Below, piece by piece: positions 7,016 to 11,938 of a stretch of DNA of 33,285 bases. Made by a program: the position numbers and the translations under genes. Numbering within the stretch: the first letter of the stretch is position 1; each line of letters starts with the position of its first letter. The notes below the pieces were generated by a model. That model was not told where the DNA came from. It made no database searches and saw only the letters and a list, made by a program, of their open reading frames with translations. Source of the DNA: Woeseiaceae bacterium (GTDB lineage: Bacteria > Pseudomonadota > Gammaproteobacteria > Steroidobacterales > Woeseiaceae). The stretch lies in assembly GCA_030066075.1 (NCBI GenBank), contig JASJCH010000012.1, positions 1 through 33,285 on the forward strand, in the 5' to 3' direction.

Positions 7016-8077
7016 TCAGGTTTCGTGCTTCATCCGTTCGAACTTGGACTTGTCATTGGCCTGCTGATAGGCGTCCTTGCCGGCGATCATGGCCTGCTCC
7101 ACGAGCGCCATCAGCGCGGAGTCCATGGTCTGCATCCCCACGTTGCCGCCGGCCTGCATGGCGGTCTCGAGCTGGTCGAGCTTGCCCTGGCGGATCAGGT
7201 TCGCCACTGCCGAGGTGTTGATCAGTACCTCGAGCGCGGCAACCCGCCCGGCGTGACCCTTGGTCGGCAGCAGCTGTTGCGAAATCACGCCGCGCAGCGA
7301 CGTGGATATCATCGTGCGGATATGCGACTGCTTGTCGGCCGGGAACGAGTTGATGATGCGATCGACTGTCTGGGCGGCGCCGTTCGTGTGCAGCGTGCCC
7401 ATGACCAGGATGCCCATCTCGGCCGCGGTGACCGCGATCGAGATCGTCTCGAGATCGCGCATTTCACCCACGAGAATCACGTCCGGGTCTTCGCGCAAGG
7501 CCGAGTGCAGGGCCTCGGCGAACGAGGGGCTGTGCACGCCGATCTCCCGCTGGCTGATCAGGCTCAACTGGGTCTTGTGGACGAACTCGATCGGGTCCTC
7601 GATGGTCAGGATGTGGCCCTTCAGGTTCTTGTTGAGCGAGTCGATCATCGCCGCGAGCGTTGTGGACTTCCCCGAGCCTGTCTTGCCGGTGACGAGGATC
7701 ATGCCGGAATTCTGCTTGCACATGTCGCGCACGACATTGGGCATGCCGAGGTCGTCGAGCGTCAGCGCCTTGGACGGGATCGCCCGAAAGATGCCGCCGA
7801 TGCCGTTGAGGTGGCGAAACGCATTGGCGCGAAAACGGGACAGACCTTCAATCTCGTAGGCGAAGTCTGCCGCTTCGTTCTTTTCGAAATCACGCTGCGT
7901 CGTCGCATCCATGATCTCGTACAGCGCTTCCTGGGCAAACTCGGGCGAGAGTGTCTCGTCGGCCAGCACGCGCAGTTCGCCATGCACGCGCATGCGGATC
8001 GGATCGCCCGATACGAAATGCAGATCCGACGCGTTGTTCTTCAGCATCGCTTCGAGGTACTGGTCGACCTTACTCAC
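7016..8077 (-). CDS. PilT-type ATPase, paralogue 2 (altered His box)
   Basis: This 353-residue protein is a GspE/PilT secretion ATPase of the retraction (PilT/PilU) branch: short, with no long N-terminal pilin-assembly domain. It has an N-terminal PAS-like region (SDLHF, 17-21), Walker A GKTGSGKST (131-139), an Asp box TIEDPIEFVH (158-167), and Walker B with catalytic Glu DPDVILVGEMRD (197-208). The His box reads AAEMGILVMGTLHTN, so the first His of the usual TGHL is Ile223; the second His (230) is kept. The C-terminal AIRNLIRE motif of PilT appears as AVANLIRQG. The gene overlaps the upstream PilT-like gene by 8 bp and ends 56 bp before metG. It may be a PilT or PilU homologue, but linkage to a kinase rather than to pil genes argues for a specialised role. 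Confidence 0.9.
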   Translation of the reverse strand: MSKVDQYLEAMLKNNASDLHFVSGDPIRMRVHGELRVLADETLSPEFAQEALYEIMDATTQRDFEKNEAADFAYEIEGLSRFRANAFRHLNGIGGIFRAIPSKALTLDDLGMPNVVRDMCKQNSGMILVTGKTGSGKSTTLAAMIDSLNKNLKGHILTIEDPIEFVHKTQLSLISQREIGVHSPSFAEALHSALREDPDVILVGEMRDLETISIAVTAAEMGILVMGTLHTNGAAQTVDRIINSFPADKQSHIRTMISTSLRGVISQQLLPTKGHAGRVAALEVLINTSAVANLIRQGKLDQLETAMQAGGNVGMQTMDSALMALVEQAMIAGKDAYQQANDKSKFERMKHET

Positions 8078-9182
8078 TCATGAACCTCCCCGTTACGCTC
8101 GTATCCAGGGTGCGAACAAGCTCGGTATCCGTGACGAACCGCGAGAACTTGCGCTTGTCGTTGGCGAAACGGAAGGCATCGTCCGGGTCGACCTCCTTGC
8201 GCTGGATCGCGTCGATCAGGCCCTGGTCGAGTAGCTGCATGCCGAGGTCCTTGCCGGTCTGGATCTGCGAGGGTATCTGGTGCGTCTGGTCCGTGGTGAT
8301 GAGCTTGGCGATTGCGCGGGTGTTGACGAGAATCTCCAGCACGGCGCGGCGGCCGCGGCCGTCGGGCGTCTTGCAAAGGACCTGCGTTACGACGGCCTTG
8401 AGGCTCATCGCGAGAAACGCCTTGGTCTGCTCGCGCAGCTCGCCCGGCAAGGCATCGATAATTCGATCGATCGTCTTTACAGCGCCGGTCGTATGCAGGG
8501 TGCCGAGCACGAGGTGGCCGGTCTCGGCGGCCGTCATCGCCATCGTGATGGTCTCGGCGTCGCGCAACTCGCCGACCAGGATAACGTCAGGGTCCTCGCG
8601 CATCGCTGAGCGCACGCCGTCGGCAAACGACGTCAGGTGCGTGCCGAGTTCGCGCTGGATGACCTGGCAGTTCTTGCTCGGGTGCACGAATTCGATCGGA
8701 TCCTCGAGGCTGATGATGTTGAGGTTTCGGTGCTCGTTGATGTGATTGATCATCGCGGCCAGGGTCGTCGATTTGCCGGTACCGGTCGAGCCGGTCACCA
8801 GCACCATGCCCTGGTGAAAATCGCAGAAGTCGTAGAGCGCCTTCGGCATATTGAGCTGTTCCAGCGTTGGCACTTCCGGCGGGATGTGCCGGAAGACCGC
8901 GCCATAGCCAGTGACCTTGCGGAAGACGTTCACACGGAATCGCCCGCCTTCTTCGGCGACGTAGGAGAAGTCGAGGTCGTGGCCGGCATCGAGTTTTTCC
9001 TGCTGGTTCGCCGTCAGGATCTCGCGGACGTAGGTTTCGAGTTCAATGTCCGAGAGTTCGCGGAACTTGATCGGCATCAGGTCGCCGTTCATTCGCAGCA
9101 TCGGCGGTACGCCTACCGACAGGTGAACGTCGGAACAGCCTTGCGCCAGGCCGAGCTTCAGGAATGCATCGATGCGTGCCAT
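8070..9182 (-). CDS. PilT-type ATPase, paralogue 1
   Basis: This is a 370-residue hexameric-type retraction ATPase of the PilT family. Features in order: SDVHLSVGVPPMLRMNG (17-33), Walker A GSTGTGKST (131-139), Asp box SLEDPIEFVH (158-167), Walker B and catalytic Glu DPDVILVGELRD (197-208), and an intact His box AAETGHLVLGTLHTT (218-232). The C-terminal AIRNLIRE-like motif is changed to AIAKLITT. About 30 residues beyond the usual PilT end (KRKFSRF onward) form a charged tail; the sister ATPase also ends in a KSKFERM segment. It starts 12 bp after the HEAT-kinase stop and overlaps the next ATPase by 8 bp, so the three genes are very likely one transcript. Confidence 0.92.
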   Translation of the reverse strand: MARIDAFLKLGLAQGCSDVHLSVGVPPMLRMNGDLMPIKFRELSDIELETYVREILTANQQEKLDAGHDLDFSYVAEEGGRFRVNVFRKVTGYGAVFRHIPPEVPTLEQLNMPKALYDFCDFHQGMVLVTGSTGTGKSTTLAAMINHINEHRNLNIISLEDPIEFVHPSKNCQVIQRELGTHLTSFADGVRSAMREDPDVILVGELRDAETITMAMTAAETGHLVLGTLHTTGAVKTIDRIIDALPGELREQTKAFLAMSLKAVVTQVLCKTPDGRGRRAVLEILVNTRAIAKLITTDQTHQIPSQIQTGKDLGMQLLDQGLIDAIQRKEVDPDDAFRFANDKRKFSRFVTDTELVRTLDTSVTGRFMSE

Positions 9183-9194
9183 GGTTACAGGAAT

Positions 9195-11645
9195 TTACAC
9201 CCGAACGTGGTCGAGCGCCTCTGTCAATTCGTCCATTGACTGGTAGCGCTTGGTCTTGTCGACCGACATGGCCTTGGCAATGATGCCGGCGAATTCGTCG
9301 GGAATGCCGGGATTGATCTCCTGGCACTGCTTGGCCTTGCCCTGGACGTGCTGGTACATGACGGACATGTGGTCGCCGCGGCTGTACGGCGGCACACCGG
9401 TCGCCATCTCGTACATGATGACGCCGACGCTGTAGATGTCGGCCGTCTCGTCGACCTTCTTGCCGAGAATCTGCTCGGGCGCCATGTATTTCGGCGAGCC
9501 GATGACGTAGCCGGTCTTGGTGAGCTGGGTATCGCCGCTGGCGGCGGCCGCGGCAACACCGAAGTCCACGATCTTGAGCAGGCCCTCCTCATTAACCAGG
9601 ACGTTGGCCGGTTTGAGGTCGCGATGAATGACGCCGGCCTGGTGCGCGACCGACATGCCCGTGGCGATATCGCGCGAGTACTTGAGCACTTTCTTGATGT
9701 CCATCGGCTGGTTGTCGGGAATCTCGCCGCTCAGCGTGTGCGATGGGAAATACTCCATCGAGATCGCATAGCTGCCTTGCAGGTTCAGGAAATCGTAGAT
9801 ACGAATGACGTTGCGATGGGTGATCTTGCGCGAGTAACGCAGCTCGTGGACGAACCGTTTCATCATCTCCTCATCCGAGGAGACGTTCGGGTTCAGGAAC
9901 TTGAGAATGAGGTGTTCGTCGACAACCTCGTCCTGCATCAGCAACACCGTGCCGAATGCGCCCTTGCCGATCTTCTCGATGTACTTGTAGCGGCCATCGA
10001 GCACGTCGCCCGGGGTCAGTTTCGAAATGTCGAGCTGCGGCGGCGCCGTCGGGGCGGCCGGCGTCGTCGCTGTCGGATCCGCATCGAGTGCGGCCGCCTC
10101 GGTGCGCGCCTTGGCCTGCGCGTCGAGCAGTTTCGAAAGGTCCTCGTCGTCGAGCAGCATGGTCTTGGTGTGCGCACCGATTTTCTTGGCGCGCTCGTTC
10201 TCGGCCATGACGGTGGCCGAGAAGCGGGCGTCGAGATCCTTCAACGCCTTGTCGGCGCTGTTGATGATCGTGGGCTCTTCAGCCTGCTTGATCTTGAGCA
10301 GGACGCCGCGCACCGTCTCGGCGTGGGTTTCGTCCGCCAGCGCCGAAATCGCCCGAATGGCCTCGACCTGGACGTCGCGTTCGGGGCTGTTGAGCAGCGG
10401 CACGATGCGGTTGATGTGTTTGTGGCTGCCGAGTTTGCCCAGCGCGCGCACGATCACGGTGTCGGTCTTGGGGTTCTGGCCCAGCATCTCTTCCAGGCGG
10501 GGGACGGCCTTGGGGCTGCCGATCTTGGACAGGGCATCGACAGCGCGTTCCTTGACCCACCAGTCGGAGTCGTGGGTGGCCTTGATCAGGTGATCCACGG
10601 CGGCCTCGTCCTTGGTCGCGTTGAGGATCTCGATGGCGGTGCGCCGCACCTCTTCATCTTCATCCTTGATCAGTTGCACGACGGAACTGACGACCTTGGG
10701 CCCGCCAATCTCGGCAAGCGCGTCGCCAGCGCGCGACCTCACCCACCAGTCGTCGTCCTTGAGCACCTGGAAGAGCTCCTTGACGGAGTCCTTGGTGCCC
10801 ACCTCGTTGAGAACCTCGACCGCGGCACGGCGCGCGTACTCGGACTCGTCCTTGAGCGCGTCCGTCAGGTACTTGACCGTCTCGGGGTGATTGAGATGGA
10901 CCATCATGTCGACAGCCTTGTTCTGGACGTCGATATCCGGATCCTGGAGCAGTTTCGCAACGGCGGCGATGTTGACGGCATCGCCGCGTGATGCGAGCGC
11001 GGTCAGGGCGGCGCTGCGGACCATCTTGTTGGGATCGCGAAGCTGCATTTCGAGCGCCTGGTTGACCTCGGGCCGATCGAACTTCGTGATGAGGTTGATG
11101 ATGTGGACCTTGATGACCGGGTCACGGCCGCCGAGGCGGGAGATCAGGTCGGGCACCATCTCGGCCCGAACCGTGTCCTCGATGATCTTGAACAGGGCGG
11201 CCGACTCATTGGGGTCCGACTCGTAGGCGCGTTGCAGCAGTTCGTGGACGCTCAGGTCCTGTTTGTGGACCCGCAGAACCTCGATCAGCGCCGGTTTCGA
11301 AACCTCCGGGTCATCGAAAAACGGCAACAGGTTGTTGGCGTTGTAGTTGGTGCTGCTGGAAAGGGCCCAGGACGTGCCCGAGACGACGCGCTCATTGCCG
11401 TCAGCCAGGCCTTCCTTGTAGAGCTCCAGCGACTTGTCGTCGACGAGGCTGGAGAGGATGTCCACGAACACCATCGTGTGTGATTTGTCGGACAGGGCGA
11501 GCGCGTCGATGGCCTTGGGAATGACCTTGGGCCCGATCTTCTTGAGGCGGTCCACGAGCTTCTTGGCTGACGCCGAATCCGGTTTTTGCTCGGCAACGAG
11601 CTTCTCAACCAGCTGATCCGCCCGGAATCCACCCAGCAAACTCAT
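9195..11645 (-). CDS. HEAT-repeat protein with C-terminal Ser/Thr protein kinase domain
   Basis: From the ATG at 11643-11645 the product is 816 residues. Residues ~1-475 are a series of HEAT/PBS-lyase-like helical repeats (for example DDDWWVRSRAGDALAEIGGP and DSDWWVKERAVDALSKIGSP). A charged, then Ala/Pro/Thr-rich linker covers ~480-550. The kinase domain fills ~553-816 with a glycine loop GKGAFG (560-565), ATP-binding Lys582, HRDLKPAN (674-681), DFG (694-696) and APE (722-724), so it looks catalytically competent. No transmembrane segment is visible, which points to a cytoplasmic protein. An upstream in-frame start at 11675 would add ten residues that do not look like the family. The gene leads a three-gene unit with two PilT-type ATPases; regulation of those ATPases by phosphorylation or scaffolding is an inference. 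Confidence 0.92.
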   Translation of the reverse strand: MSLLGGFRADQLVEKLVAEQKPDSASAKKLVDRLKKIGPKVIPKAIDALALSDKSHTMVFVDILSSLVDDKSLELYKEGLADGNERVVSGTSWALSSSTNYNANNLLPFFDDPEVSKPALIEVLRVHKQDLSVHELLQRAYESDPNESAALFKIIEDTVRAEMVPDLISRLGGRDPVIKVHIINLITKFDRPEVNQALEMQLRDPNKMVRSAALTALASRGDAVNIAAVAKLLQDPDIDVQNKAVDMMVHLNHPETVKYLTDALKDESEYARRAAVEVLNEVGTKDSVKELFQVLKDDDWWVRSRAGDALAEIGGPKVVSSVVQLIKDEDEEVRRTAIEILNATKDEAAVDHLIKATHDSDWWVKERAVDALSKIGSPKAVPRLEEMLGQNPKTDTVIVRALGKLGSHKHINRIVPLLNSPERDVQVEAIRAISALADETHAETVRGVLLKIKQAEEPTIINSADKALKDLDARFSATVMAENERAKKIGAHTKTMLLDDEDLSKLLDAQAKARTEAAALDADPTATTPAAPTAPPQLDISKLTPGDVLDGRYKYIEKIGKGAFGTVLLMQDEVVDEHLILKFLNPNVSSDEEMMKRFVHELRYSRKITHRNVIRIYDFLNLQGSYAISMEYFPSHTLSGEIPDNQPMDIKKVLKYSRDIATGMSVAHQAGVIHRDLKPANVLVNEEGLLKIVDFGVAAAAASGDTQLTKTGYVIGSPKYMAPEQILGKKVDETADIYSVGVIMYEMATGVPPYSRGDHMSVMYQHVQGKAKQCQEINPGIPDEFAGIIAKAMSVDKTKRYQSMDELTEALDHVRV

Positions 11646-11938
11646 CGGCGCACACCGAGGCAGGGACCGCCGCATGCTGGCGTCCCTGCAGAAAACGTGC
11701 CCTCGCGTCTGCTATGAAAAGTCAATCGTCGCTCTGCTATTGCGAAAACCTGAGCGCTGCAGGCGGTCCCTGCAAACCTGCGCTGCTCACAAAATCCCAG
11801 ATGCAGTCTTATACCACATCGCTACTGCGCAATTGCTCCGTTACAATGTGCGCCCGCGGTGTCTCCGTCACGAGCCACCTGCGCATAATTTTACCTAATA
11901 CCACATGCGGAAATGTGACGCCGTCAACAGAATCGAAC
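11646..11938. other. Divergent intergenic region between the HEAT-kinase gene and apbC
   Basis: These 293 bp separate two divergent genes and must hold both promoters. The AT content is higher toward the apbC side. A TACAAT hexamer at 11842-11847 on the plus strand resembles a -10 box, but no convincing -35 box lies 16-18 bp upstream. A TTGACT on the minus strand near 11726-11731 has no matching -10. The apbC frame is open back to 11714, but that stretch is Cys/Ser/Thr-rich and unlike the family, so I treat it as non-coding. I see no RNA gene or repeat here. Confidence 0.5.

Follow-up and report, generated by a model that had tools for sequence, protein, structure and literature searches.

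Twitching, DNA uptake, surface sensing, and the entry of phages all depend on type IV pilus retraction, and the usual pilT-pilU locus is a yggS/proC/yggT-like neighborhood. A 33,285-nucleotide stretch of DNA from a Woeseiaceae bacterium (assembly GCA_030066075.1, contig JASJCH010000012.1), here called the window, raises the question of why two PilT-like ATPases are encoded there with a HEAT-repeat Ser/Thr kinase and of what such a unit does. The kinase gene and the two ATPase genes, which we call TA and TB, are all encoded on the minus strand, the kinase first, then TA and TB, with spacings of +12 bp between the kinase and TA and -8 bp between TA and TB. A preliminary description of the window, made from the letters alone, had reported this three-gene unit (hereafter the triad), the lack of a pilus gene beside it, and intact kinase and Walker motifs. 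Our analysis agrees with it on the genes, both spacings, and the kinase end at position 11645, and we found the catalytic residues kept in 25 kinase orthologues and the ATPase motifs kept in both of the clades to which TA and TB belong. At one end the triad is flanked by apbC and dcd and at the other by metG together with rnf genes, and none of the window genes examined was recognized as a pilus structural gene.

A conserved PilT-family pair beside canonical PilT and PilU

Both TA and TB match the PilT/PilU family model TIGR01420 above its cut-off of 319.1 bits (TA, 417.7 bits, E 3.6e-125; TB, 446.5 bits, E 6.5e-134), and the nearest solved structure by sequence is for both P. aeruginosa PilT (3jvu/3jvv). 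Walker A, Walker B with its catalytic Glu, the Asp box, and the His box are kept in the two clades. Such matches are what one would find if TA and TB were an ordinary PilT and PilU encoded away from yggS, with the kinase as a chance neighbor. However, the host genome (2.58 Mb, 114 contigs, 79.7% complete) contains a second pilT-pilU pair, on contig C81, which adjoins yggS, proC, and yggT-like genes. Furthermore, a maximum-likelihood tree of 108 rows resolved four separate groups, namely TA (support of 96), TB (98), canonical PilT (99), and PilU (100), with TA and TB outside both the yggS-linked PilT clade and the PilU clade; the one row in the TB group that was labeled canonical, L046, is a TB copy. 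As the kinase is also linked to them in more than 110 genomes (see below), an ordinary pair with a chance neighbor is hardly credible, and the second pair and the tree together rule out identity with canonical pilT-pilU. Judged by their sequences, TA and TB are a PilT-family pair distinct from the standard PilT and PilU motors. They resemble the canonical proteins in family, ATPase motifs, and tandem pairing but form separate clades, coexist with both, and are linked to a kinase where the canonical pair is linked to yggS. In many related genomes (L067-L069, L074, L076-L083), the canonical locus itself carries an extra third PilU-like gene, which falls into subclades of its own.

PilT proteins share a conserved C-terminal AIRNLIRE motif that PilU lacks (PMC6762196). 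TB has a near form of this motif, AVANLIRQ, and TA has lost it (AIAKLITT). The loss in TA would suit ATPases that no longer move pili and serve as signaling adaptors or as sensors reporting the state of the pilus, in which case information would run from motor to kinase; canonical PilT and PilU are also still present, so an extra pair need not supply force. On the other hand, the Walker A, Walker B, Asp, and His boxes kept in both clades suggest selection on ATP hydrolysis, and we regard a pure sensor role as unlikely, if by no means negligible. By description, TA and TB can be likened to PilT-2 of Neisseria and PilT1-4 of Geobacter, which are extra PilT-family ATPases beside a main motor, and a modulating effect on retraction has been reported for PilT-2 (PMC6762196, PMC5065972). 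The cited papers describe neither a HEAT kinase nor an FHA gene linked to these proteins, whereas TA and TB have the kinase.

The distribution of the triad was evaluated in 117 genomes of the window's order, 369 of its class, and 349 drawn from its phylum. Full-length kinase orthologues were present in 83/117 order genomes, and TA was present in exactly the same 83 (lists compared by hand). The two genes were adjacent in 80 of these, and in the others (G001, G054, and G108), the kinase reaches the contig end. Across the class sample, where a TA match required E <= 1e-106, the kinase was matched in 50/369 genomes and TA in 45/369, and the kinase was present in all 45 genomes with TA. The genomes with a kinase match but no counted TA were two with divergent kinases (G269 and G379), two incomplete or broken cases (G398 and G425), and one in which TA is cut by the contig end (G413). 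In G398, which has neither TA nor TB, the kinase is reduced to its HEAT part and has lost the catalytic domain. TB lies directly 3' of TA in 32/32 triad loci taken from outside the window's genus (L026-L057). Within the order, the triad is located between apbC and metG, while other genes surround it outside the order. With more than 110 genomes sharing it, the arrangement goes far beyond what chance would produce. None of the 349 genomes drawn from the phylum added another triad, and the unit therefore seems confined to a portion of the sampled class, whose gene content we judge to be gammaproteobacterial. Together, these results establish that the unit is a real conserved module and not a canonical pair with a chance neighbor. 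Of the two outcomes that would have counted against the preliminary description, neither was observed: the genome has another pilT-pilU pair and TA and TB lie outside the canonical clades, and related genomes keep the kinase beside them.

Candidates of other kinds were set aside. The HEAT kinases of G269 and G379 (28% identity) stand in a clpB/bolA-like context without TA and were treated as a different kinase. Divergent HEAT-repeat Ser/Thr kinases of this kind (26-29% identity), flanked by clpB and a bolA-like gene and lacking PilT-like neighbors, are at L058 (5168-7582) and L059 (5058-7508). Phage or plasmid cargo was rejected, since viral contigs held no relative of the kinase and the plasmid matches were generic kinase domains only.

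Co-occurrence with the type IVa pilus and an FHA gene

Genomes were scored as positive for the type IVa pilus (T4aP) when they contained PilM (E < 1e-40) or PilB (over the cut-off). T4aP was present in 79/83 order genomes with the triad versus 8/34 without it (Fisher p 5e-15), and three of the four triad genomes scored as T4aP negative are only 70-85% complete. In the window's own genome, contig C58 carries PilB together with a pilin-like gene and, adjoining it, a PilC-like open reading frame (ORF); the genome also has PilM on contig C93, GspE, and an MshE-like ATPase.

The last two ATPases bear on whether TA and TB might be motors of another type IV pilus (T4P)-like filament, such as the MSHA pilus, regulated by the kinase. 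Indeed, the MshE-type ATPase carries a cyclic di-GMP (c-di-GMP)-binding domain and is encoded in an msh-like cluster. However, MshE orthologues occur in only 9/117 order genomes, compared with 83/117 for the triad, and the T4aP markers follow the triad far better. An MSHA motor pair was rejected on this distribution, and we consider motors of any such other filament very unlikely. The MSHA-like cluster that includes the MshE-type ATPase is at L012 (contig C17, 2083-11001); the stretch after it lacks any one long ORF, and its reading frame may be broken.

In 10 of the 21 loci outside the order (L037-L057), TB is followed by an FHA-domain gene whose product has another, FHA-like half. In the window's order, a related FHA gene occurs as a single copy at a separate locus, in a conserved run of a Ser/Thr kinase, an Stp1-type PP2C phosphatase, and the FHA gene, which the window's genome has on contig C92. 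This FHA gene was found in 79/83 genomes with the triad versus 2/34 without it (Fisher p 5.6e-22, a descriptive value that counts genomes as independent). That an FHA gene joins the module in other lineages favors a signaling role. In the window's genome, the PP2C phosphatase gene adjoins the FHA gene, at a locus that is apart from the triad and has a kinase of its own. This kinase/PP2C/FHA run (L171, positions 3-3296 of C92; L172, L173, L175, L177, L182) is a second Ser/Thr signaling locus, by alr and dnaB and, in relatives, a radA-like gene; its kinase is a membrane protein whose N-terminal part looks CHASE2-like by eye.

The preliminary description had read the unit as a signaling module tuning pilus retraction or another membrane machine. 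The co-occurrence adds a link to T4aP, and the FHA gene favors the signaling part of that reading; another machine, in the form of MSHA, is disfavored. For the docking of the HEAT array on the ATPases, which it had also supposed, the evidence consists of the conservation of HEAT repeats 9-12 and a modest rate correlation (see below).

Directly 5' of the kinase, 16 of the 21 loci outside the order carry a gene for a protein of ~155 amino acids with weak similarity to DUF6812 (e.g., L045, 3950-4420). The protein is modeled as two small beta barrels, for which the best partial structural resemblance is Hfq/Sm-like, and it had no solved-structure match at E <= 0.001. No relative was found in the 117 genomes of the window's order, in a search that had no positive control there.

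The HEAT-repeat kinase

The kinase opens with a HEAT array, which a variable linker joins to the Hanks-type kinase domain (HEAT_2, E 7.5e-74; Pkinase, E 6.4e-52; Pfam/NCBIfam). In the catalytic domain, the glycine loop, K592, E611, HRD (684-686), N691, DFG, and APE are invariant or nearly so across 25 orthologues. The Hanks-type catalytic motif set is complete, and the predicted fold is like that of PknB/Stk1. The AlphaFold model of the HEAT array has a predicted local distance difference test (pLDDT) score of mostly 85-96 over residues 21-480; with a predicted template modeling (pTM) score of 0.50 for the kinase model, domain orientation and surface mapping were left uninterpreted.

Mean conservation reaches 0.75-0.81 in HEAT repeats 9-12, compared with 0.69 in the kinase domain and 0.41-0.60 in the other repeats (residues 12-484). 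Conservation above that of the kinase domain is the pattern expected of a binding surface, and repeats 9-12 may therefore provide a docking face. A [KRASQ]T[MLA]L motif is present in the otherwise variable linker of 22/22 order kinases, where shuffling would be expected to give 0.6, and of 0/21 kinases outside the order. This motif resembles threonine motifs bound by FHA domains, for which PknG-OdhI may serve as a precedent. In the PknG-OdhI/GarA system, a kinase with a helical-repeat (TPR) scaffold recruits its FHA substrate in a phosphorylation-dependent manner (PMC8546545), to which the KTxLL linker motif may be analogous; however, the scaffold is TPR there and HEAT here, and PknG governs 2-oxoglutarate metabolism and not pili.

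A kinase/FHA pathway might also control pilus gene expression or general physiology, and the linkage to TA and TB would then reflect shared regulation. The archaellum ArnA-D kinase/FHA system does modulate archaellum components, to a good extent at the expression level (PMC5300886, PMC6509490). In contrast, none of the loci examined links a transcription factor to the module, and conservation within the kinase is highest in a HEAT stretch, as expected of a protein scaffold. We find control of this kind improbable.

The features of the unit are collected in Table 1. The kinase ORF, which has 826 amino acids, opens at 11675, and alignment of the 25 orthologues places the conserved start at Met11 (11645). 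TB starts with GTG, and a ribosome-binding-like sequence, GGGGAGG, is present just 5' of it.

Table 1. Positions in the window of the triad genes and of the regions distinguished within the kinase (residues in ORF numbering)
Feature	Position	Strand	Basis
HEAT-repeat Ser/Thr (Hanks-type) kinase gene	9195..11645	-	HEAT_2 and Pkinase matches; orthologue alignment
TA, PilT/PilU-family ATPase, 370 amino acids, own clade, intact ATPase motifs, without AIRNLIRE	8070..9182	-	TIGR01420, tree
TB, second PilT/PilU-family ATPase, 353 amino acids, own clade, AIRNLIRE-like AVANLIRQ	7016..8077	-	TIGR01420, tree
HEAT array, residues ~12-530	10086..11642	-	AlphaFold model; Pfam HEAT_2
HEAT repeats 9-12, residues 271-385, candidate docking surface, WW/IGG/ERR motifs	10521..10865	-	Conservation
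Thr505 codon in linker motif KTMLLDDED, candidate autophosphorylation/FHA-binding site	10161..10163	-	
Kinase domain, residues 556-822	9210..10010	-	Pfam PF00069; Foldseek matches Stk1, PknA, PknB

A proposed phospho-regulated retraction-motor module

We propose that the triad serves T4aP as an accessory module of retraction motors regulated by phosphorylation, under kinase/FHA control, a reading to which we assign a probability of about 0.58. TA and TB, as neither PilT nor PilU, would probably form hexamers at the pilus base, either with canonical PilT/PilU or replacing them. The HEAT array of the kinase, most likely through repeats 9-12, would act as a scaffold on which the ATPases, or else a protein of the pilus base, are held. 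Residual distance correlations of the HEAT part, after regression on canonical PilT and PilU, were 0.77 with TB and 0.51 with TA in 17 genomes, a modest rate correlation that speaks for the proposal. The kinase would phosphorylate threonines on the complex or on itself, the FHA protein would read the phosphothreonine marks, and the PP2C phosphatase could reset them. As an outcome, retraction force, rate, or timing would be switched in response to a signal.

Several points weigh against this proposal. The co-occurrence statistics take related genomes as independent and are descriptive only, and both features might be found together in large genomes with T4P for unrelated reasons. The triad is missing from at least seven T4aP-positive genomes, so it is not essential for pili. 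Genome G101, from the same genus and 97% complete, contains the triad without a PilM, PilB, or FHA match. The FHA gene of the order adjoins its own kinase and may serve that kinase. Moreover, the triad kinase lies apart from TA-TB in G278 and G479 despite room on the contig, and the rate correlation between the HEAT part and the ATPases is based on only 17 genomes. As regards G101, it may have lost its pilus assembly genes, or the matches may fall in an assembly gap.

Kinase-FHA control of large machines has precedents. The PpkA-Fha-PppA system of type VI secretion likewise places a Ser/Thr kinase, an FHA reader, and a phosphatase on an envelope nanomachine (PMC3953482, PMC5995506). It acts on another machine, however, and the kinase described here is HEAT armed and encoded with two ATPases, while the PP2C is known only from another locus, where it is accompanied by a different kinase. 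In the archaellum network (ArnA/ArnB, ArnC/ArnD), a machine resembling the type IV pilus is under the control of kinases together with an FHA protein (PMC5300886, PMC12852372), but this network is archaeal and, unlike the triad, has no extra motor ATPases. The components of the module are thus known families, and both PilT paralogues modulating retraction and kinase-FHA control, in type VI secretion and the archaellum, are already known. We found no description of a HEAT kinase combined with a distinct PilT-family pair in the literature searched, subscription papers being outside its scope.

The proposed accessory motor module bears on two questions, namely, how retraction is switched and what leads many bacteria to retain more than one PilT-like ATPase. 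If the proposal is true, the combination of a conserved kinase, a dedicated extra motor pair, and a phosphothreonine reader would make both questions directly testable genetically. A more specific form of it, which we offer tentatively, is that a widespread Ser/Thr phosphorylation pathway directly gates T4aP retraction in many Gammaproteobacteria-like genomes, with the HEAT kinase physically holding the dedicated second ATPase pair, the FHA protein reading the marks, and the two-barrel DUF6812-like partner giving the input. Direct gating of this kind would provide type IV pili with a post-translational clutch, apart from the known transcriptional, cyclic AMP, and c-di-GMP controls.

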